DNA of 64,000 bases from Siphonodentalium dalli (lineage: Eukaryota; Mollusca; Scaphopoda; Gadilida; Siphonodentaliidae): positions 120,952,126 through 121,016,125 of the forward strand of contig CP136069.1 in assembly GCA_032622095.1 (NCBI GenBank), given 5' to 3'. The notes beneath the pieces were generated by a model that was not told where the DNA came from, ran no database searches, and saw nothing but the letters and a program-made list of their open reading frames with translations. A program made the position numbers and the translations under genes. Below, one piece after another: positions 25,700 to 60,622 of this stretch. Positions within the stretch are counted from its first letter, which is position 1; every line of letters starts with the position of its first letter.

Positions 25700-26695
25700 T
25701 AACTGAATGAGATAATTCAGTTGGTATAACGAGAGGGTTAAAGAATCCGGTGTTTGGTGTGTAGTTGACTTTTCATGGACAAACCCTTGGAAGTATATAG
25801 GGCACATAAATAGTCGAGGCAATTGATATGCACATCGTTATGCATGTTTCTCAAAATAGGTTGATGAAACATGCCAACGGCAGATAATATAACGATATAA
25901 TATCACTTCGTATTGCTTCAATCATTATACATACTGTGCCATGAATCAACCACAAAGCCATGGACAGACATGTTCAATTGCGTATACATATAGTATATGA
26001 AGGGAGGCGTTTGGAACTATCTTAATGAAGGCTACTATCTGGGCAAGTGCTTACGTGTCATGCAGTCCCTTACTGTAGTTAGTAAAATAATGCTTTATTA
26101 TTCTCAGCCATTATACATGAGAAAACGTATATATACACTAAATACAAATTAGAACGTTCAATGGTTTGTATTGAACTTACTGTAATTACAAGTATACATA
26201 AATCAAATACAATGGAAACAATAATCAGTTACGATCCAATATTGCATTGCCATGTCCAATTCGACACACCTATCTAAAGATTCTAAGCGATTCAAAAATG
26301 AAATTACATTTCGAATGTACATTATGAACAATCAATAGACGCTACAGTGCTGTTTTGTCATTGTTTTTGAAGCCAAGATGTTGTAAAAAATATAGGGTTA
26401 CATCAATTACGTTAAACTATTAATTCATATACGTGGTGATGTACTAATATTACGTACATGATTATTATCTGTAATGCAAATGAGTTATATACTATATATA
26501 TATATTGAATGGTTGAAAGTTCAAACGTACAGTTTTATATATAGGTAAGATGTGAACAAACATAAACACATTTTTTGGCTGTATAACGTTAACCTGAAGA
26601 TCGGCCAAAAGCCGTGAAAGGCCTCGTTATATTCACCATCTTCGCTGGTGTCGACATGTAGTGGCACTCTATGTGGCTTTACTGCCACCCACACA
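25700..26695. other. No recognised feature
   Basis: AT-rich flank of the large foldback element. No exon, RNA gene or repeat boundary seen. Confidence 0.4.
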
Positions 26696-26698
26696 ACC

Positions 26699-29600
26699 GG
26701 TGTGACTAAACACCGCCCGGACCAGCCCGGACCAGCCCGGACAAGCCCGGACCAGCCCGGACCATCCCAGTCCAGCCCGAACACCCAATATGAACTATAT
26801 GAGTGATTTTAAGGGCAATATAAGTGCAGGGGTGTCATGGAAACCCACTCAGGGTCGCTATTAATCCTCAAAATGCCGGCATCGGCGAAAATATTCGCCG
26901 TGAAATGAAGCTAACAGCCCGGACCGCCCCTGCTGCGTCCAGGTATGATTTTAGTATCCATACATGTGCGAGGGTGTTAATGAAACCCAAATACGCACGG
27001 AGAGTGGTCAAGGTCAAACGGAAGTGCCGCTTATTAACCCCTAAACTTCCCAGATTCAGCCAGAATAAAAAAATTGCGCCCCCAATAAACAAATTCACAG
27101 CCCGGACCCCCTTAATGTCCTCGTACTTCTAATAACTCCTTACATATGTGTTGTGGAACTACCCTCGACTACAATCACGAAGATACAAGGGCGAGTCGCC
27201 CACGAATGCCTGGCAATTAACCCCCAAAATGCCGCCATCGCCGATTATGTTTACCGATAACGACGCTGACAGCCCGGAACAGCCCGGACCATCCCAGTCC
27301 AACCCGGACCCCCCATATGGACTATATGAGTGATTGTAAGGGCAATATAAGTGCAGGGGTGTCATGGAAACCCACTCAGGGTCGCTATTAACCCTCAAAA
27401 TGCCGTCATTGGCGAAAATGTTCGCCGTGAAATTAAGCTAACAGCCCGGACCGCCCCTGCTGCGTCCAGGTATGATTTTATTATCCATACATGTGCGAGG
27501 GTGTTAATGAAACCCAAATACGCACGGAGAGTGGTCAAGGTCAAACGGAAGTGCCGCTTATTAACCCCTAAACTTCCCAGATTCAGCCAGAATTAAAAAA
27601 TTGAGCCCCCAATAAACAAATTCACAGCCCGGACCCCCTTAATGTCCTCGTACTTCTAATAACTCCTTACATATGTGTTGTGGAACTACCCTCGACTACA
27701 ATCACGAAGATACAAGGGCGAGTCGCCCACGAATGCCTGGCAATTAACCCCCAAAATGCCGCCATCGCCGATTATGTTTACCGATAACGACGCTGACAGC
27801 CCGGAACAGCCCGGACCATCCCAGTCCAACCCGGACCCCCCATATGGACTATATGAGTGATTGTAAGGGCAATATAAGTGCAGGGGTGTCATGGAAACCC
27901 ACTCAGGGTAGCTATTAACCCTCAAAATGCCGGCATTGGCGAAAATGTTCGCCGTGAAATTAAGCTAACAGCCCGGACCGCCCCTGCTGCGTCCAGGTAT
28001 GATTTTATTATCCATACATGTGCGAGGGTGTTAATGAAACCCAAATACGCACGGAGAGTGGTCAAGGTCAAACGGAAGTGCCGCTTATTAACCCCTAAAC
28101 TTCCCAGATTCAGCCAGAATTAAAAAATTGAGCCCCCAATAAACAAATTCACAGCCCGGACCCCCTTAATGTCCACGTACTTCTAATAACTCCTTACATA
28201 TGTGTTGTGGAACTACCCTCGACTACACTCACGAAGATACAAGGGCGAGTCGCCCACGAATGCCTGGCAATTAACCCACAAAATGCGCCATCGCCGATTA
28301 TGTTTACCGATAACGACGCTGACAGCCCGGACCAGCCCGGCCCATCCCAGTCCAGCCCGGACCCCCCATATGGACTATATGAGTGATTGTAAGGCCAATA
28401 TAAGTGCAAGGGTGTCATGGAAACCCACTCAGGGTCGCTATTAACCCTAAAAATGCCGGCATCGGCGAAAATGTTCGCCGTGAAATGTAGCTAACAGCCC
28501 GGACCGCCCCTGCTGCGTCCATTTGGGATTTTAGTATCCATACCTGTGCGGGGGTGTGAATGAAACCCAAATACGCACGGAGAGTGGTCAAGGTCAAACG
28601 GAAGTGCCGCTTATTAACCCCTAAACTTCCCAGATTCAGCCAGAATTAAAAAATTGCGCCCCCAATAAACAAATTCACAGCCCGGACCCCCTTAATGTCC
28701 TCGTACTTATAATAACTCTTTACATATGTGTTGTGGAACTACCCTCGACTACACTCACGAAGATTCAAGGGCGAGTCGCCCACAAATGCCTGGCAATTAA
28801 CCCCCAAAATGCCGCCATCGCCGATTATGTTTACCGATAACGACGCTGACAGCCCGGACCATCCCAGTCCAGCCCGGACCCCCAATATGGACTATATGAG
28901 TGATTTTAGCGGCAATATAAGTGCAGGGGTGTCATGGAAACCCACTCAGGGTCGCTATTAACCCTGAAAATGCCGGCATCGGCGAAAATGTTCGCCGTGA
29001 AATGAAGCTAACAGCCCGGACCGCCCCTGCTGCGTCCAGGTATGATTTTAGTATCCATACATGTGCGAGGGTGTTAATGAAACCCAAATACGCACGGAGA
29101 GTGGTCAAGGTCAAACGGAAGTGCCGCTCATTAACCCCTAAACTTCCCAGATTCAGCCAGAATAAAAAAATTGAGCCCCCAATAAACAAATTCACAGCCC
29201 GGACCCCCTTAATGTCCTCGTACTTCTAATAACTCCTTACATATGTGTTGTGGAACTACCCTCGACTACACTCACGAAGATTCAAGGGCGAGTCGCCCAC
29301 GAATGCCTGGCAATTAACGCCCAAAATGCCGCCATCGCCGATTATGTTTACCGATAACGACGCTGACAGCCCGGACCAGCCCGGACCATCCCAGTCCAGC
29401 CCGGACCCCCCATATGGACTATACGAGTGATTTTAAGGGCAATATAAGTGCAGGGGTGTCATGGAAACCCACTCGGGGTCGCTATTAACCCTCAAAATGA
29501 CGGCATCGGCGAAAATGTTCGCCGTGAAATGAAGCTAACAGCCCGGACCGCCCCTGCTGCGTCCAGGTATGATTTTATTATCCATACATGTGCGAGGGTG

Positions 29601-30361
29601 TTAACGAAACCCAAATACGCACGGAGAGTGGTCAAGGTCAAACGGAAGTGCCGCTTATTAACCCCTAAACTTCCCAGATTCAGCCAGAATTAAAAAATTG
29701 CGCCCCCAATAAACAAATTCACAGCCCGGACCCCCTTAATGTCCTCGTACTTCTAATAACTCCTTACATATGTGTTGTGGAACTACCCTCGACTACAATC
29801 ACGAAGATACAAGGGCGAGTCGCCCACGAATGCCTGGCAATTAACCCCCAAAATGCCGCCATCGCCAATTATGTTTACCGATAACGACGCTGACAGCCCG
29901 GACCAGCCCGGACCATCCCAGTCCAGCCCGGACCCCCATATGGACTATATGAGTGATTGTAAGGCCAATATAAGTGCAGGGGTGTCATGGAAACCCACTC
30001 AGGGTCGCTATTAACCCTCAAAATGCCGGCATCGGCGAAAATGTTCGCCGTGAAATGAAGCTAACAGCCTGGACCGCCCCTGCTGCGTCCAGGTATGAAT
30101 TTAGTATCCATACATGTGCGAGGGTGTTAATGAAACCCAAATACGCACGGACAGTCGTCAAGGTCAAACGAAAGTGCCGCTTATTAACCCCTAAACTTCC
30201 CAGATTCAGCCAGAATTAAAAAATTGCACCCCAATAAACAAATTCACAGCCCGGACCCCCTTAATGTCCTCGTACTTCAAATAATTCCTTACATATGTGT
30301 TGTGGAACTACCCTCGACTACAATCACGAAGATACAAGGGCGAGTCGCCCACGAATGCCTG
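26699..30361 (+). repeat. Forward array of 527-bp units
   Basis: Seven head-to-tail units, the first shortened at the terminal 10-bp repeats and the last cut after CACGAATGCCTG. Differences between units are single substitutions and a few 1-10-bp indels, many shared by neighbours, as expected from unequal exchange. Several frames stay open in every unit on both strands, a consequence of repetition and GC content rather than evidence of a protein. Confidence 0.9.
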
Positions 30362-32338
30362 TAAGGAGTTATTAGAAGTACGAGGACATTAAGGGGGTCC
30401 GGGCTGTGAATTTGTTTATTGGGGGCGCAATTTTTTAATTCTGGCTGAATCTGGGAAGTTTAGGGGTTAATAAGCGGCACTTCCGTTTGACCTTGACCAC
30501 TCTCCGTGCGTATTTGTGTTTCATTCACACCCCCGCACAGGTATGGATACTAAAATCCCACATGGACGCAGCAGGGGCGGTCCGGGCTGTTAGCTTCATT
30601 TCACGGCGAACATTTTCGCCGATGCCGGCATTTTGAGGGTTAATAGCGACCCTGAGTGGGTTTCCATGACACCCCTGCACTTATATTGGCCTTACAATCA
30701 CTCATATAGTCCATATGGGGAATCCGGGCTGGATTGGGATGGGCCGGGCTGGTCCGGGCTGTCAGCGTCGTTATCGGTAAACATAATCGGCGATGGCGGC
30801 ATTTTGGGGGTTAATTGCCAGGCATTCGTGGGCGACTCGCCCTTGTATCTTCGTGAGTGTAGTCGAGGGTAGTTCCACAACACATAATTATGTAAGGAGT
30901 TATTAGAAGTACGAGGACATTAAGGGGGTCCGGGCTGTGAATTTGTTTATTGGGGGCTCAATTTTTTAATTCTGGCTGAATCTGGGAAGTTTAGGGGTTA
31001 ATAAGCGGCACTTCCGTTTGACCTTGACCACTCTCCGTGCGTATTTGGGTTTCATTAACACCCTCGCACATGTATGGATAATAAAATCATACCTGGATGC
31101 AGCAGGGGCGGTCCGGGCTGTTAGTTTCATTTCACGGCGAACATTTTCGCCGATGCCGGTATTTTGAGGGTTAATAGCGACCCTGAGTGGGTTTCCATGA
31201 CACCCCTGCACTTATATTGCCCTTAAAATCACTCATATAGTCCATATGGGGGGTCCGGGCTGGACTGGGATGGTCCGGGCTGTCAGCGTCGTTATCGGTA
31301 AACATAATCGGCGATGGCGGCATTTTGGGGGTTAATTGCCAGGCATTCGTGGGCGACTCGCCATTGTATCTTCGTGAGTGTAGTCGAGGGTAGTTCCACA
31401 ACACATATGTAAGGAGTTATTAGAAGTACGAGGACATTAAGGGGGTCCGGGCTGTGAATTTGTTTATTGGGGGCGCAATTTTTTAATTCTGGCTGAATCT
31501 GGGAAGTTTAGGGGTTAATAAGCGGCACTTCCATTTGACCGTGACCACTCTCCGTGCGTATTTGGGTTTCATTAACACCCTCGCACATGTATGGATACTA
31601 AAATCATACCTGGACGCAGCAGGGGCGGTCCGGGCTGTTAGCTTCATTTCACGGCGAACATTTTCGCCGATGCCGGCATTTTGAGGGTTAATAGCGACCC
31701 TGAGTGGGTTTCCGTGACACCCCTGCACTTATATTGGCCTTACAATCACTCATATAGTTCATATGGGGGTCCGGGCTGGACTGGGATGGTCCGGGCTGGT
31801 CCGGGCTGTCAGCGTCGTTATTGGTAAACATAATCGGCGATGGCGGCATTTTGGGGGTTAATTGCCAGGCATTCGTGGGCGACTCGCCCTTGTATCTTCG
31901 TGATTGTAGTCGAGGGTAGTTCCACAACACATATGTAAGGAGTTATTAGAAGTACGAGGACATTAACGGGGTCCGGGCTGTGAATTTGTTTATTGGGGGC
32001 GCAATTTTTTAATTCTGGCTGAATCTGGGAAGTTTAGGTGTTAATAAGCGGCACTTCCGTTTGACCTTGACCACTCTCCGTGCGTATTTGGGTTTCATTA
32101 ACACCCCCGCTCAGGAATGGATACTAAAATCCCACCTGGACGGAGCAGGGGCGGTCCGGGCTGTTAGCTTCATTTCGCGGCGAACATTTTCGCCGATGCC
32201 GGCATTTTGAGGGTTAATAGCGACCCTGAGTGGGTTTCCATGACACCCCTTCACTTATATTGGCCTTACAATCACTCATATAGTCCATATGGGGGTCCGG
32301 GCTGGTCCGGGCTGGTCCGGGCGGTGTTTAGTCACACC
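30362..32338 (-). repeat. Inverted array of 527-bp units
   Basis: Starts abruptly with TAAGGAGTTATTAGAAGTAC, the complement of the forward unit's GTACTTCTAATAACTCCTTA, and runs as about 3.7 units to the right terminus. The first and last inverted units share CCCACATGGAC/CCCACCTGGAC and ACCCCCGC variants with the forward unit at 28519-28560, so sequence has been exchanged between arms. Confidence 0.9.
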
Positions 32339-32339
32339 C

Positions 32340-34060
32340 CACATACTTTGAAATTCAAGCTATTCATATTTTTGGGACAGTTCTATGATAGTGATAACTC
32401 TATATATACATACAAATATCGGTTTAGAAACAAAAGGCGTATATTATATAAGACATATATTACACATGCACAGAATCAAAATTTACATGAACACGATGAA
32501 GATTTTTGCACAAGTCACTCACTATAAGTATTTGCACCCAGTCAGATTGATCTAACAGGCTGCATGTCAACTGGAAGGTCGATGTATATTATGTTTCACT
32601 CTATCAATCTTTTGCATACTATCTCCAATTTATATTTTTCGATATCCATGTATGTACATTGGATCAGAGAATAAAGCATATCTGAGAACATTTCCACGAT
32701 AGTTGGCTAGAATGGGTGTAGTGTTTAGGTACATAGTTCGTACGGTCGTGCGGTACTAAGACATTTCCCCACTCACTCCAGTTTCCACTAATTATATATG
32801 CGAAAACAATTCAGATCACCGCAGATTTCAATTTAATGGAAAACTGAGCAAAGTTAATTAAAACCCACCACGAATACCGTTGAACGGCTCTGTGATTCGT
32901 CCCTGTAGTATATCGTTCACAAAATCAATGCAGTACTTCAAACGATAAGATGGTATTGTAGTTCGTGTTATCAATGCCTCAAACGCACTTGTTTAAGGAA
33001 TGCTTCTCTGGAACATTTAGAAATTTGACTCTCGAGTCTGCACTTAAAGGTGCAACCACGAAAACCTTAAGTGAAAACATATCTACCTTTAAAATAGTTC
33101 AAAAATTTATAACTATGACAGAACGTTTTTCCAACTAAAATTATGATATGACAAGCGACATCGAAGTATTAAGTGCATTAATTACATATATTGCTCTCAT
33201 TGTTCTCATTCAATTCAAATTAACACATGAAAAATTAACGTATAAATTCCCTGCCTTTAAGAAGCACAACTGAGTCAAATTGAGATATGGTCACTCGTGG
33301 ATACGTCAAATATAAGCCTTACAGGCTTACAGCCGAATCCACTTCACCCTCCTACACAAGGAATTATATGCTATTGTATTATACATGATGTGGTTTGACT
33401 GGAATAAAATATTATTAAACTAAACGTACTTGTTTCAAGCTTAAGGGTACACATCATCTTCAGTAATTGCAAATGTATGTAATTACTTGGATACATACAT
33501 GTGTCAATTTTTGTGATAAACGTACACGTACACACACATACTGTGTGTGTTAACCCTCTATAAACAAAAGCATAATTGATGAGTAGTTATCTCATAGGAA
33601 ATGTTCAGATAATAAGTTCAACAAACGACCATATTATCTAAACATTTCCCTCAACAAATAGGGCTCCAACTGCACTTTTGTGTATATGTCGTCTGTTTAT
33701 ATCACCTTAACACCCCAACAAATTAATAATATACCTTTCCTGTATACAATTTTAACTTATTGGGATAATTAATTTATTATAGAAAGGGTTCATGGTAAGG
33801 TTCTTGCGGCCACTTGCCAAATTTGCCGTTTGTATATACAAATTGGCATTTGACAAATATGATTTCCGTTTGGCAAATGTTTTGGGCAAGAGACTCATCA
33901 ATTCCCCAAGAAAGTTGTTGAAATAAGTGTTTGCTCAATAACATTTATTTCAGAGAAGTCTCACAATTATGGCACGTTCACATGACAGGCAAGACAATAT
34001 CAGGTATGCCCCATGCGACTTACTTGATCAATGTAAAAAAAATAATACAGGAAAATTGTA
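32340..34060. other. No gene; small palindrome
   Basis: Only a GGAAATGTTCAGATAATAAG hairpin at 33597-33650 was recognised, with TATTATCTAAACATTTCC as the other arm. GATGAGTAG lies just outside, as it does at 13128 (complement) and in part at 25542. Confidence 0.45.
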
Positions 34061-34905: not shown

Positions 34906-36440
34906 TATGGAATCCTATTAGGGCCACTTGCTAATGGCGCCATTAGCGTTGTTTCGGCGCGCGCCGAAAGCGACAAAACATGCGCCATTACGGCGCACTT
35001 TTTGTCGCTTTCGGCGCTTTCGGCGCACCGCGCCGAAAGCGACAAAATATGCGCCATTAGTGCAATCGGCGCGGTGCGCCATTAGTGCATTCGGCGCGGT
35101 GCGCCATTAGCGCGGTGCGCCGAAAGCGACAAAATATGCGCCATTAGCGCATGTACAATTAAGTATGTGATCACCCCAGCAGGGGTGCCGGAAGAATGGG
35201 GCAGGTGGGGCAGCTGACCCCCTGTCCTTGACCAAGGGGGGCGAGCGGGGGCAGGACTTGCCCTTTTTCTGGAGAAAGAAAATGCTTTTTGTGTGTTTAA
35301 TCTCGTGTTTTTACAGTAAAATGTTACTTTTTTGGTCCAAATACCACCAATTTCACAAGGAATATTAATTTTTTGTCAATTTTGTCACAAAACGGCCATA
35401 AAAACCGACAAATACCTTTAAAATAGGGATTTTTGCCACAATGAATTTATGGTTATTTTTTCGAGTTTGCGGAGAAAATGCCCTTTTTTTGGGCAGAAAA
35501 GTGCCCTTTTTGTAGGCTCTGCCCCCCCCCCCTGCCCTTGGATGCTTCCGGCGCCCCTGCACAGATCGGGCATGGCCATATGTACAATGTATAGGCCTAT
35601 GTATCAATTTTAAAAGGGAGGGGCTGAATTTTGCTGTAGATAGACCTCCAAATGCTATAATTTGTCATTATTCAGATTTAAAATTATTGTGGCCGTGTGG
35701 TCCTGGTCCCTCCTTTGTGGGTAGTTAAAGGTACTCAATCTGATCAGACGGTCCCAGGGATGTGGCTAGAGGGTCTCCGTTGGGGGTGTCCACCTTGGGA
35801 AATTCCAACTGCACCCCCTTGAATCAGAATCAGACAAAACACAAATTTTACATAATTCCATTTGCACCCCCCCCCCCCTTGCACCTTAGTGCTCATGCCT
35901 AATATCCTAACATCTAGTGGTCTAAATCCAGACAAATGCACACGGCTATGGACAAGAGACCAGGACACACCGGGCTGACCATTGTTGTTCAACGCAGTGT
36001 GAGAATTTTTTTTGAAAACTGTACAAGAAAATCACAAATCCTAGCATCTAGACTGGCCTCAACTGAAGCTTGGGTCAGCTGCCCACTCTGCCCCCTCTTC
36101 CGGCACCCCTGCTGGGGTGATCACATACTTAATTGTACATGCGCTAATGGCGCATATTTTGTCGCTTTCGGCGCACCGCGCTAATGGCGCACCGCGCCGA
36201 ATGCATTAATGGCGCATCGCGCCGAATGCACTAATTAATGCGCTAATGCCGGTGCGCCGAAAGCGCCGAAAGCGACAAAAAGTGTGCCGTAACGGCGCAT
36301 ATTTTGTCGCTTTCGGCGCTTTCGGCGCGCGCCGAAACAACGCTAATGGCGCACATTTTGTCGCTTTCGGCGATCGCGCCGAAAGCGACAAAAAGTGCGC
36401 CGAAAGCGCCATTAGTAAGTGGCCCTAATAGGATTCCATA
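34906..36440. mobile_element. 1.5-kb foldback with GCGCCATTAG/GCGCCGAAAGCGAC arms
   Basis: The termini TATGGAATCCTATTAGGGCC and their complement are perfectly inverted and flanked by a 6-bp TSD, AATTGA (34900-34905 and 36441-36446). Inverted arms of roughly 300 and 360 bp are built from GCGCCATTAG and GCGCCGAAAGCGACAAAA words. They share CATGTACAATTAAGTATGTG and CCCCAGCAGGGGTGCCGG further in. The middle (about 35225-36070) is not inverted and includes fragments of two other repeats. Confidence 0.85.
35727..35895 (+). repeat. Nested MITE end plus TTCCAACTG-family head
   Basis: TTAAAGGTACTCAATCTGAT is one end of the AGGTACT MITE seen at 18335. Directly after it come GGGATGTGGCTAGAGGGTCTC and a GGAAATTCCAACTGCACC block, the head of the TTCCAACTG family. 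Both lie inside the foldback element, so they inserted into it or were captured by it. Confidence 0.55.
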
Positions 36441-41131: not shown

Positions 41132-43426
41132 GGTCCTACTAAAACCCGACCGCACCCGACCGCACCCGACCGCACCCGACCGGACCGCCCACAGGGGTCC
41201 GAGCGAGATGGGGTTTGCACTATCGTGTAGAATGGACCCGAATGTACCAAAGTTCCAATCCCCAAGTCGATAGCTCGAGCGGACACGGCACTGTTAACCC
41301 CTGACTGACGGCAGTTTCCGCCAGGTACGGGAAATCCAAAAAGGCGCCGACCGCACCTCCCCTGACTGCCTGACCACGGAAATGGACATTATATCATGAA
41401 GTGAATACCCATATATGCATCCATGGGCGATCGGACAATTCGCTAGCTGCAGCGGAAGTGAATAAATTAACCCATACGCTGCTGCCGAATTCGCTATAAA
41501 TGTACGCAAAAACGCCGAAATTAACACCCGCCGACCGGACCGCCCCTAGGGGTCCGAGCGAGATAGGGTTTGCACTATCGTGTAGAATGAACCCGAATGT
41601 ACCAAAGTTCCAATCCCCAAGTCGATAGCTCGAGCGGACACGACACTGTTAACCCCTCAGGCTGACTGGCGGCCGTTTCCGCCAGGTACGGTAAATCCAA
41701 AAAGGCGCCGACCCGCACCTCCCCTGACTGCCTGACCACGGAAATGGACATTATATCATGAAGTGAATACCCATATGCATCCATGGGTGATCGGACAAGT
41801 CGCTAGCTGCAGCGGAAGTGAATAAATTAACCTATACGCTGCTGCCGAATTCGCTATAAATGTACGCAAAAACGCCGAAATTAACACCCGCCGACCGGAC
41901 CGCCCCTAGGGGTCCGAGCGAGATAGGGTTTGCACTATCGTGTAGAATGAACCCGAATGTACCAAAGTTCCAATCAACAAGTCGATAGCTCGAGCGGACA
42001 CAGCACTGTTAACCCCTGACTGGCGGCCGTTACCACCAGGTACGGGAAATCGAAAAAGGCGCCGACCGCTCCTCCCCTGACTGCCTGACCACGGAAATGG
42101 ACATTATATCATGAAGTGAATACCCATATGCATCCATGGGTGATCGGATAAGTCGCTAGCTGCAGCGGAAGTGAATAAATTAACCCATACGCTGCTGCCG
42201 AATTCGCTATAAATGTACGCAAAAACGCCGAAATTAACACCCGCCGACCGGACCGCCCCTAGGGGTGCGAGCGAGATGGGGTTTGCACTATCGTGTAGAA
42301 TGGACCCGAATGTACCAAAGTTACAATCCCCAAGTCGATAGCTCGAGCGGACACGGCACTGTTAAAGACACGGTTGGCCTTGGCGGTGGGTATCCTGTGA
42401 AAATATCTCAACCCGTTAAAAACCGCCACAAACAGAAAGAACGTCAAAATGTAGATAGACTTTGTCCGTATACAAATAAGAAATATCGCATAAACAGTAT
42501 GTTATGGTCATATGTTTGACCATTGTTATCTAAACAAAAGCATAAAAAGTTACTTTTCTGGTGTTTGTTTATATTATGATGGTAAACATAAAGAGCGTTC
42601 TTTGTTGGTGAATACCTGATATGGAACTAATAAAGAGCGTTTATGTCATTTGTGTGTGATTAGCCAGTAGCATTGTGCTGTCTTCTGTAACACAATCAGG
42701 CTCTTTCTTAGGTAAAATATAGTAGGTCTTTATGATAACATGCTGTTTACGCGATGGTCATGGTATATATGAACGGAACTGTATGCGTTTTAATGTTTTT
42801 CTGTTTACGGTGTTTGGAACAAATATGAATATTTTCGACAACTAAGGCCGCACTTGCCTTTAACCCGTACCTGGCGGAAACGGTCGCCAGTCAGGGGTTA
42901 ACAGTGCCGTGTCCGCTCGAGCTATCGACTTGGGGATGGGAATTTTGGTACATTCGGATCCATTCTACACGATAGTGCAAACCCCATCTCGCTCGGATCC
43001 CTAGGGGTGGTCCGGTCGGCGGGTGTTAATTTCGGCGTTTTTGCGTACATTTATAGCGAATTTGGCAGCAGCGTATGGGTTAATTTATTCACTTCCGCTG
43101 CAGCTAGCGACTTGTCCGATCGCCCATGGATGCATATGGGTATTCACTTCATGATATAATGTCCATTTCCGTGGTCAGGCAGTCAGGGGAGGTGCGGACG
43201 GCGCCTTTTTGGATTTCCCGTACCTGGCGGAAACGGCCGCCAGTCAGGGGTTAACAGTGCCGTGTCTGCTCGAGCTATCGACTTGGGGATTGGAACTTTG
43301 GTACATTCGGGTCCATTCTACACGATAGTGCAAACCCCATCTCGCTCGGACCCCTAGGGGCGGTCCGGTCGGGTGCGGTCGGGTCCGGTCAGGTGCGGTC
43401 GGGTGCGGTCGGGTTTTAGTAGGACC
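41132..43426. mobile_element. 2.3-kb foldback element with ~360-bp tandem units
   Basis: Inverted termini GGTCCTACTAAAACCCGACC with a 10-bp CCCGACCGCA tandem behind them. The left arm (41132-42363) holds about 3.4 units with anchor CACTGTTAACCCCTGAC-like sequence at about 41283, 41644 and 42004. The right arm (42859-43426) holds about 1.5 inverted units. A unique spacer (42364-42858) separates them and contains two TAAAGAGCGTT words. Units carry TTAACCC sites, CCGGACCGCCCCT and GCTAGCTGCAGCGGAAGTG. The design parallels the 26.7-kb element. No TSD is obvious. Confidence 0.85.
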
Positions 43427-51344: not shown

Positions 51345-52025
51345 TGTCAATGCCCAAACACAACGTTGGCCCAACGTTGCCCCAACGTCGTATTGTTAGT
51401 GGAATTCACCGTTGATTCGACGTCGTTTCAACGTCGGGTGCCCGACGGCGCACCAACGTCGGCTCGACGTCGAACCACCGTCGAGTCGACGACGAGATCC
51501 GACGCCGAGCCAGCGGCAACAGCCATAGTTGGCACAACGTTGGATTCCAACTTTGATAGAAATGACGTTGGCCCAATATTGGCCCAACGTCGTATTATTA
51601 GTGGAATTCACCGTTGGTTCGACGTCGTTTCAACGTCGGGTGCCCGACGGCGCACCAACGTCGGCTCGATGTCGAACCACCGTCGAGTCGACGACGGGAT
51701 CCGACGTTGAGCCGACACCGAGCCAGCGGCAACAGCCATAGTTGGCACAACGTTGGATTCCAACGTTGATAGAAATGGCGTTGGCCCAACGTTGGCCCAA
51801 CGTCGTATTATTAGTGGAATTCATCGCTGGTTCGACGTCGTTTCAACGGCGGGTGCCCGACGGCGCACCAACGTCGGCTCGACGTCGAACCACCGTCGAG
51901 TCGACGACGGGATCCGACGTCGAGCCGACACCGAGCCAGCGGCAACAGCCATAGTTGGCCCAACGTTGGATTCCAACGTTGGCCCAACGATATAAATGAC
52001 GTTGGCCCAACGTTGGCCCAACATA
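51345..52025. repeat. AACGTTGG-rich ~213-bp tandem repeat
   Basis: About 3.2 units. Each has TTGGCCCAACGTTGGCCCAA, CGTCGTATTATTAGTGGAAT, many ACGTCG words and GAGCCAGCGGCAACAGCCAT. The middle unit starts about 213 bp after the first, and similarly for the third; the first unit lacks 12 bp. Self-complementary AACGTT and TCGACG words make it hairpin-rich. Open frames on both strands reflect the repeat. Confidence 0.85.
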
Positions 52026-58659: not shown

Positions 58660-60533
58660 CTAGCCGATGAGCCCGACGTTGTCCGGGCTATTCAAAAACC
58701 AAATTTCAAGTCGATAGCTCTACCCTTTTCCGAGATCTGGTCTGCGCATGCGCGAAGCTGGCGTCGCACGGGCTCGGCGACCCGATAAAATTCGTATCCG
58801 GGGCAAGATACATTCACATACCAAATTTCAAGTCGATAGCTCCCCCCGTTTCCGAGATTTCGTCTGCGCATGCGCGAAGCTGGCGTCACACGGGCTCGGC
58901 GACCCGATAAAATTCGTATCCGGGGCAAGATACATTCACATACCAAATTTCAAGTCGATAGCTCCACCCGTTTCCGATATCTCGTCTGCGCATGCGCGAA
59001 GCTGGTGTCGCACGGGCTCGGCGACCCGATAAAATTCGTATCCGGGGCAAGATACATTCACATAGCAAATTTCAAGTCGATAGCTCCACCCGTTTCCGAG
59101 ATCTCGTCTGCTCATGCGCTGCACGGGCGTCGCACGGGCTCGCCAATACGACGGTGAAGACCGCCTGGTCAAACTACACACACGTACCAAGTTTCGTCCC
59201 AATCGGTCGAGAATCGTAGATTTGTATAAATGACATACATACAGACAAACATACCGACAGACAGACAAACAGATGTCTTCAAAAATATATATGAGACTAG
59301 CCAATGAGCCCGACTTTGTCCGGGCTATTCAAAAACCAAATTTCAAGTCGATAGCTCTACCAGTTTCAGAGATCTGGTCTGCGCATGCGCGAAGCTGGCG
59401 TCGCACGGGCTCGGCGACCCGATAAAATTCGTATCCGGGGCAAGATACATTCACATACCACATTTCAAGTCGATAGCTCCACCCGTTTCCGAGATCTCGT
59501 CTGCGCATGCGCGAAGCTGGCGTCGCACCGGCTCGGCGACCCGATAAAATTCGTATCCGGGCAAGATACATTAGCATACCAAATTTCAAGTCGATAGCTC
59601 CACCCGTTTCTGAGATCTCGTCTGCGCACGCGCTGCACGGGCGTCGCACGGGCTCGCCAATACGACAACAACGACCGCCTGGTCAAACTACACACACGTA
59701 CCAAGTTTCGTCCCGATCGGTCGAGAATCGTAGATTTGTATAAATGACATACAGACAAACAAACAGACATAAAAACAAACAGACAAAGGTCTTCAAAATA
59801 TATATGAGACTAGCCTATGAGCCCGACGTTATCCGGGCTATTCAAAAACCAAATTTCAAGTCGATAGCTCTACCCGTTTCCGAGATCTGGTCTGCGCATG
59901 CGCGAAGCTGGCGTCGCACGGACTCGGCGACCCAATAAAATTCGTACCCGGGGCAAGATACATTCACATACCAAATTTCAAGTCGATAGCTCCACCCGTT
60001 TCCGAGATCTCGTCTTCGCATGCGCTGCACGGGCGTCGCACGTGCTCGCCAATACGACAACGACGACCGTCTGGTCAAACTACACACACGTACCAAGTTT
60101 CGTCCCGATCGGTCGAGAATCGTAGATTTGTATTAATGACAGACAGACAGACAGACAGACAGACATAAAAACAAACAGACAAAGGTCTTCAAAATATATA
60201 TGAGACTAGCCTATGAGCCCGACGTTATCCGGGCTATTCAAAAACCAAATTTCAAGTCGATAGCTCTACCCGTTTCCGAGATCTGGTCTGCGCATGCGCG
60301 AAGCTGGCGTCGCACGGACTCGGCGACCCAATAAAATTCGTACCCGGGGCAAGATACATTCACATACCAAATTTCAAGTCGATAGCTCCACCCGTTTCCG
60401 AGATCTCGTCTTCGCATGCGCTGCACGGGCGTCGCACGTGCTCGCCAATACGACAACGACGACCGTCTGGTCAAACTACACACACGTACCAAGTTTCGTC
60501 CCGATCGGTCGAGAATCGTAGATTTGTATTAAT

Positions 60534-60585
<52 letters not shown>

Positions 60586-60622
60586 AACAGACAGACAGAC
60601 AGAGGTCTTCAAAATATATATG
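58660..60622 (+). repeat. Higher-order tandem repeat, 122-bp units in four blocks
   Basis: Blocks begin ATGAGCCCGACGTTGTCCGG or a variant and end with CGTCCCGATCGGTCGAGAAT, ATTTGTAT.AATGACA, a CAGA/GACA microsatellite and GTCTTCAAAATATATATGAG. Within blocks the 122-bp unit (CCAAATTTCAAGTCGATAGC ... GGGGCAAGATACATTCACAT) occurs 4, 3, 2 and 2 times. The last two blocks are almost identical and 396 bp apart, a recent duplication. The unit's AAATTTCAAGTCGATAGCTC and the GACA tail are typical of a repeat class in marine invertebrates. Open frames here are repeat artefacts. Confidence 0.88.

Follow-up and report, generated by a model that had tools for sequence, protein, structure and literature searches.

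A foldback element with satellite-like arms in Siphonodentalium dalli, very probably a core-less Mutator-like transposon

Introduction

A stretch of 64,000 nucleotides from Siphonodentalium dalli (hereafter the window) contains a block in which direct units of about 527 bp are followed by inverted ones. The question is whether such a block is a satellite array that underwent an inversion, or a mobile element, and in the latter case to which superfamily the element belongs. The initial annotation favoured mobility and could match the block to no named family. Our analysis leads us, with high confidence, to place it among the Mutator-like (MULE) transposons, as a foldback that is non-autonomous and has lost its core.

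Structure of the window copy

The element is a foldback of 5,640 bp, whose ends are mapped by its termini, and its parts are as follows.

26699..32338, no strand: whole foldback element, from the terminus coordinates and arm mapping
26699..30360, plus strand: left arm, about 6.9 direct units of about 527 bp, 3,662 bp
30361..32338, minus strand: right arm, about 3.8 inverted units, 1,978 bp
26699..26742, plus strand: left terminus, 44 bp, a perfect inverted match to the right terminus
32295..32338, minus strand: right terminus, 44 bp
26715..26779, plus strand: 10-bp tandem repeat GCCCGGACCA, 6.5 copies, left end
32294..32322, minus strand: 10-bp tandem repeat, 2.9 copies, right end
27439..27965, plus strand: example unit, used as the reference unit, a trimer of 182-, 171- and 174-bp monomers
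30360..30361, no strand: arm junction, unit position 301 against 233, with a 2-bp overlap
26690..26698, no strand: left flank, CACACAAC plus the end base C, without clear target-site duplication
32339..32347, no strand: right flank, the end base C plus CACATACT, without clear target-site duplication

The annotated coordinates, both arms, the sharp junction (placed at 30361; the arms meet at 30360/30361), the perfect 44-bp inverted termini and the 10-bp repeat are thus all present in the sequence. The first 16 bp of the left terminus (GGTGTGACTAAACACC) form an imperfect palindrome. At both ends a C lies immediately beyond the 44-bp terminus and breaks the inverted match, so that the edge of the element is sharp. 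Near-complete units taken from opposite arms are 95.2 to 98.5% identical. The terminal inverted repeats (TIRs) have the features of a foldback, being internally repetitive, variable in length and making up most of the element, as well as those of a MULE, since they exceed 100 bp and carry subterminal tandem repeats.

The three monomers of the 527-bp unit are diverged, and the motif GCCCGGA, from the 10-bp repeat, also opens each of these monomers of about 175 bp. A second foldback family, made of 353-bp units that are dimers, is found within the window and is probably a relative of the 527-bp-unit family. Its 499-bp centre (42366-42863) was considered as a core common to both families, wrongly: this centre resembles an independent element that went into a TTAA site, and it is also present in one copy of the 527-bp-unit family (L034). 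Two reading frames of the window were compared with Pfam; one resembles an LDL-receptor A domain below the cut-off (E 0.029), and the other had no match.

Termini, target sites and empty sites

A satellite array with an inversion, rearranged locally and not mobile, would account for several features of the locus: the 527-bp units resemble a higher-order satellite repeat, the window copy has no clear target-site duplication, and its junction is unique, a 39-mer that spans it occurring once in an exact search of the genome, at the window copy itself. The initial annotation had held that mobility would become doubtful if the terminus were found here only, or solely within long satellite arrays. 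Instead, an exact search for a 24-bp terminus returned 596 dispersed matches in the 2.23-Gb genome (308 forward and 288 reverse). The same pattern read backwards gave none in either orientation, so that this abundance is not due to chance. Counting paired termini, as the annotation had proposed, we found 27 inward-facing pairs of neighbours at most 35 kb apart (54 termini) and no outward-facing pair among the first 100 of the 596 matches listed.

Twenty-one copies were examined, and in 15 of them both termini lay inside the DNA read; in three (L034, L040 and L043) the right end is broken or missing. A comparison of flanks, in line with the annotation's proposal, showed target-site duplications of 8 to 10 bp, as words shared beside the ends, in 13 of the 15 copies with both termini, while 210 mismatched flank pairs, taken as a control, shared words of at most 6 bp. 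When one end base per side is allowed, four of the 13 duplications measure 9 bp and one measures 10 bp. The two exceptions are L031, without target-site duplication, and the window copy, where the best shared word is 5 bp, a length that 33 of the 210 mismatched pairs reach or exceed. An inversion or exchange partner was sought for the window copy, but neither of its two flanking 8-mers was found beside another terminus (0 matches each in exact genome searches, which diverged partners would escape).

Related empty sites were also found. Among the joined flanks of these 13 copies, those of L044 and L046 align across the join with related window sequence (74% and 78%) and clear it by 15 bp, the margin fixed beforehand; those of L033 are marginal (74%), as they pass the join by 13 bp only, with a 1-base gap at the join. 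Taken with the duplications, with the terminus counts and pairing, and with the transposase cores joined to the arms (see below), these sites make an immobile satellite very unlikely.

The annotation had also predicted that a transcript would form double-stranded RNA nearly 2 kb long, which is consistent with the 1,978 bp of the shorter arm. Arms of at least 2 kb at about 97% identity could indeed form such RNA, and one may imagine a hairpin-RNA locus of the host, which would retain the long inverted arms for the production of small RNAs. Nevertheless, the copies are dispersed, carry target-site duplications and vary in their arms, which suggests selfish spread, and we hold a host locus to be exceedingly improbable.

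A MULE transposase in related copies

Some copies enclose a core that codes for a MULE transposase. In L051, an open frame of 412 aa matches the Pfam family MULE (PF10551) with 30.1 bits, against a curated cut-off of 27.6, and also Transposase_mut (E 0.0013), at 18.1 bits and under its cut-off of 21. Reading by motif, and not by alignment or mutation, we placed the DDE triad of this frame at D92, D168 and a candidate E286 (spacings of 76 and 118), with C189xxH192, a CxxH motif, between the second D and the candidate E. E286 is the residue that, from the motif, we take to be the third of the DDE triad. An upstream frame of 453 aa in L051, which may stop short of the true coding start, gave no Pfam match with an E-value of 1 or lower, including to FLYWCH, the N-terminal domain of Phantom-clade MULEs.

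The core is physically joined to the arms and termini. L053 contains a left terminus, 0.6 unit and the core; L055, which adjoins L051, contains the end of the core, about five units and a right terminus; no arm or terminus was seen within about 5 kb upstream of the L051 core. In L032 and L038, arms flank the core on both sides. For L032, a right terminus lies about 1.6 kb past the DNA examined, and the right arm of L038 stops after 646 bp, the next inward terminus being 23 kb from its left terminus. Because these two copies have a common left flank, they do not count as independent; in both, the coding frame is split into shorter pieces. Two of the 21 copies keep only remnants, 98 to 99% identical to the 3.76-kb core (868 bp in L031 and 911 bp in L045), and 16 are without core. 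The centre of L050 (3.6 kb, with simple-sequence runs) showed no similarity to the core of L032.

The assignment of the family to the MULEs is supported by these copies, in which the same arms and termini accompany a transposase gene, and it is through them that an element left without a named family can be placed in the Mutator superfamily, as a foldback type. A foldback of another superfamily, with arms acquired by convergence, was considered. Duplications of 8 bp alone would also suit hAT. Galileo, of P type, shares the body plan, two-TIR-only copies included. However, the duplications are not fixed at 8 bp and the core codes for a MULE domain; the Pfam search of the 412-aa frame returned MULE and Transposase_mut alone, without P-type signature. 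Duplication length and transposase together disfavour both superfamilies, and we judge such an origin extremely unlikely.

Arm junctions and proposed loss of the core

In 15 copies the arms meet with 0 to 19 bp between them, and 13 different junctions are found among these 15. Two pairs share a junction (L041 with L043, and L035 with L040); the members of each pair lie on different contigs, and the flanks compared do not resemble each other. The 19-bp filler of L041 and L043 has no more than an 11-bp match to the reference unit, but the window contains two occurrences of its first 18 bp.

These junctions bear on whether the palindrome of the window copy is an assembly artefact, as its junction, found once in the genome, might suggest. 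Against this, the other 20 copies examined, across all nine contigs, have the same plan of direct units followed by inverted units, two junctions are common to unlinked loci, and the window copy has both termini and matching end bases. An artefact is thus highly unlikely for the window copy and, like the satellite-only reading, it is disfavoured for the family by terminus counts, pairing and duplications. For the family, the annotation's preference for mobile DNA over an ordinary satellite is borne out by dispersed termini, inward pairs, the 13 duplications in 15 copies, related empty sites, and shared junctions with unlike flanks. Transposition of the window copy itself we infer from its relatives, given that it shows no clear target-site duplication and that its junction occurs only once.

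How might a core-less MULE foldback of this kind arise? The transposase of core-bearing copies would recognise the palindrome at the terminus together with the subterminal 10-bp repeats, then cut and paste the element, leaving a break behind. Incomplete repair of the break may sometimes lead to loss of the core, the arms being joined at arbitrary unit positions, and unequal exchange or slippage could then lengthen or shorten the arms by whole units. One such core-less product would be the window copy. The finding of 13 different junctions in 15 copies is what one would expect if the core had been lost repeatedly, each time through imperfect repair of the gap. The copies form a series, in which the core is first present, then partly deleted and finally absent, with arms alone remaining, and may be used to study the repair of transposition-induced breaks, as well as the origin of higher-order tandem repeats inside mobile DNA.

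A broader scenario is offered tentatively, as possible rather than probable. Two related foldback MULE families would each have built their arms from an ancestral, roughly nucleosome-sized monomer of about 175 bp that opens with the transposon's short repeat, as 527-bp trimers in one and 353-bp dimers in the other. The arms would then act as a satellite that is mobile and has higher-order repeats, with exchange or spread of its units across the genome, and the numerous unique junctions would be a record of transposon gap repair.

Comparison with known foldback elements

Sea-urchin Tu elements, FARE and Drosophila FB/NOF are further elements suited to comparison. Four systems are compared here, on the basis of parts of the reports cited. 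Galileo, of the P superfamily in Drosophila, has long internally repetitive TIRs and almost TIR-only copies, explained as deletion products, but its transposase is of P type, and not MULE as here (PMC3573991).

Tm1, a Mutator/foldback element of root-knot nematodes, resembles the present family by its composite TIRs of variable length, by asymmetric outermost motifs that lie outside the inverted match, and by the existence of both transposase-coding and non-autonomous copies; it differs by a 13- to 15-bp tandem motif, 9-bp duplications and a Phantom-type transposase (PMC3169594).

Muta1 of Aedes aegypti, a MULE and type 2 foldback, shares with the present family a terminal motif that is an imperfect palindrome, short tandem repeats next to it in subterminal position (12 bp, against 10 bp here), duplications of 8 or 9 bp, a MULE transposase with DDE and CxxH, and many non-autonomous derivatives (PMC5225508). 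The positions given for Muta1 correspond to DDE spacings of 69 and 136, compared with those of 76 and 118 in L051. Its TIRs measure 145 bp, whereas the arms here reach about 5.8 kb among family copies by means of 527-bp units, and core-less copies here have arms that meet directly (PMC5225508).

Tetris, a foldback of Drosophila virilis, is the closest structural analogue, likened here by its description: its TIRs consist of a terminal domain and a variable number of tandem repeats of about 220 bp, and its duplications are of 8 to 10 bp (PMC4079207). The TIRs of Tetris extend up to 1,735 bp; in the present family, three monomers of about 175 bp make up each unit. Its authors suggest the Mutator superfamily and, in the part of their report used here, found no transposase copy; in S. 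dalli, a foldback with satellite-like arms is now linked to transposase-coding relatives. The class is a known kind, that of Tm1, Muta1 and Tetris, and what is less usual here is the arms of up to about 5.8 kb, the trimeric units, the second family of 353-bp dimers and the diversity of junctions.

Structure of the foldback element

The initial annotation had described a sharp arm junction, perfect 44-bp inverted termini and a 10-bp tandem repeat, and all three are present. The arms are joined at 30360/30361, the termini enclose the element at 26699-32338 of the window (C9:120952126-121016125, in a genome of 2.23 Gb and nine contigs), and the terminus opens with a 16-bp imperfect palindrome, GGTGTGACTAAACACC, directly followed by the tandem repeat. 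This arm junction occurs once in the genome.

Arms of the window foldback
26699-30360, left arm, 3,662 bp, about 6.9 units
30361-32338, inverted right arm, 1,978 bp, about 3.8 units

The 527-bp unit consists of three diverged monomers (182, 171 and 174 bp), and CAGCCCGGA stands near the start of each. The monomers are alike beyond chance, their score being reached in 0 of 200 shuffles in each of the three comparisons.

Dispersal and insertion sites

A 602-bp query from the left end has at least 226 matches in the genome, with all nine contigs represented among those listed. The exact 24-bp terminus is found 308 times in forward and 288 times in reverse orientation; the control, the same pattern read backwards, is found in neither (0 and 0). 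Two checks suggested at the outset, for paired termini and for target-site duplications, both gave positive results. Among the first 100 places listed (C1 and part of C2), and taking neighbours at most 35 kb apart, 54 termini form 27 inward-facing pairs, none form outward-facing pairs and 46 stay unpaired. The pairs are between 178 bp and 32.7 kb long, those at the upper end perhaps not being single elements. At C2:53122345-53123336, five exact termini lie on the same strand at spacings of 121-426 bp, in contrast to the usual inward-facing pairs.

Both termini (at most two mismatches) lie within the DNA read in 15 of 21 copies, namely the window copy and 20 fetched from the genome (L031-L050). 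A word of 8-10 bp stands beside both ends in 13 of these 15, the longest shared word being 8 bp in six, 9 bp in six and 10 bp in one; in 210 mismatched flank pairs, used as a control, it never exceeded 6 bp. Because the ninth base in two copies with 9-bp words (L033 and L047) may be the end base of the element itself, we read the duplications as 8 bp in eight copies, 9 bp in four and 10 bp in one. Neither L031 nor the window copy shows a duplication beside its ends. In all 15 copies one letter (C or G) stands between terminus and flank, identical at both ends, and the element therefore seems to finish in an asymmetric base. Tm1 similarly bears asymmetric motifs beyond its inverted repeat (PMC3169594).

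Of the six other copies, L032 is still in its right arm where the fetched DNA stops, with a right terminus listed about 1.6 kb beyond. The right arm of L038 is cut short at 646 bp, and 23 kb separate the left terminus of this copy from the next inward one. L050 continues to the end of its stretch, and the right end is broken or missing in L034, L040 and L043. Some 10 bp from its terminus, the left flank of L036 (512-541) contains TTAGTCACACC, which by eye looks like a family member's outer end.

The flanks of the 13 duplication-bearing copies were joined and searched for empty sites, with a preset margin of 15 bp past the join. Those of L044 (74%) and L046 (78%) align across the join with related window sequence, which marks related empty sites. 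For L033 (74%) the alignment extends only 13 bp past the join, with a 1-base gap there, and for ten copies no match across the join was found in the roughly 210 kb compared.

Transposase core

L032 and L038 carry a 3.76-kb core between their arms. The two cores are 99.7% identical, and since the left flank is common to both, the copies are not independent insertions. Their coding frame is fragmented into a 200-aa piece, a 180-aa piece and others. Relatives of the 200-aa piece at 94-100% identity lie at six genome places, L032 and L038 included, and more distant ones, at about 80% or lower, are among the 150 reported matches. Against Pfam MULE, the L032 piece alone scores 22.2 bits, below the cut-off of 27.6, and a 412-aa open frame in a close relative, L051, scores 30.1; the latter also matches Transposase_mut with E 0.0013, below that family's cut-off. 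In this frame D92, D168, C189xxH192 and E286, the last a candidate chosen by motif, follow the order described for MULEs, as in Muta1 (PMC5225508).

Two further stretches tie the core to the arms and termini of this family: L053 contains a left terminus, about 0.6 unit of arm and core, and L055, which adjoins L051, contains the core's end, some five units and a right terminus. No arm or terminus was found within about 5 kb upstream of the L051 core.

Proposed core loss and the arm junctions

The core is present in 2 of 21 copies (L032 and L038); remnants of 98-99% identity persist in two (868 bp in L031, 911 bp in L045), L050 has a different 3.6-kb centre, and 16 have no core. One core-less copy, L034, has a 180-bp centre, and in 15 the arms meet with 0-19 bp between them, at 13 different junctions in unit coordinates. 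Ten simple junctions were examined: five have an exact arm overlap of 0-3 bp and five a separation of 1-8 bp, which also counts base differences from the single reference unit. In L046 both arms end at one and the same unit position, making a perfect palindrome at the centre. Excision would leave a break, and its incomplete repair would repeatedly lose the core. For Galileo, truncated copies are attributed by the authors to break-repair errors (PMC3573991).

One junction is common to L041 and L043 (in opposite orientation) and another to L035 and L040. Within each pair the partners lie on different contigs and their arms are of unequal length, yet they are about 98-99% identical across the junction. 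No similarity was detected between the partners' compared flanks (on the left of L040 just 53 bp). The simplest reading is that the foldbacks were themselves mobile, with arm length changing after the move; conversion between copies may instead have produced these shared junctions. L035 (6932-8184) and L040 (5419-6671), on different contigs, also share a 1,253-bp insertion in the right arm, 99.5% identical and with its own inverted ends.

We compared 134 near-complete units, each aligned over 510 bp or more of a single 527-bp reference unit. Their mean identity reaches 97.5-97.6% inside an arm, 97.4% across the two arms of an element and 97.1% across elements. Two units from different elements thus differ hardly more than two from the same one, which points to a recent burst or to exchange on a wide scale.

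A second foldback family and neighbouring repeats

41132-43426, second foldback, termini GGTCCTACTAAAACCCGACC, 10-bp tandem repeat, 353-bp units

The 353-bp unit may be a dimer, with monomers of about 176 bp (score reached in 0 of 200 shuffles). In six cross-family monomer comparisons, each with 200 shuffles, A-D and C-E beat all shuffles, the A-E score was reached once, and three showed no similarity. The termini of the two families look alike (GGTxxxACTAAA), and a common origin is likely on these resemblances, though not proven. By eye, no clear duplication is visible at the ends of the second foldback. L044 lies in DNA resembling an arm of it.

An element of about 499 bp, apparently inserted at TTAA, is nested in both families (42366-42863 and L034:3599-4097, 97% identical). 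The window also holds the following repeats.

34906-36440, another inverted-repeat structure, with tandem repeats of about 25 bp (GCGCCATTAG...) in both arms
51363-52022, 213-bp tandem array built from short words of the ACGTTGG/CGACGTCG type
58690-60603, tandem arrays with units of 122 and 396 bp, next to runs of GACA

Comparison with known systems

No comparable family was found among the titles and abstract openings listed by literature searches, which were general rather than host-directed and do not prove absence from print. We compared the family with Tm1 (PMC3169594), Tetris (PMC4079207), Muta1 (PMC5225508) and Galileo (PMC3573991). Its closest functional relative is Muta1, a MULE whose terminal motif is palindromic and which has tandem repeats in subterminal position and duplications of 8 or 9 bp, and the closest arm design is that of Tetris. 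The family is of a known kind, with a striking build.
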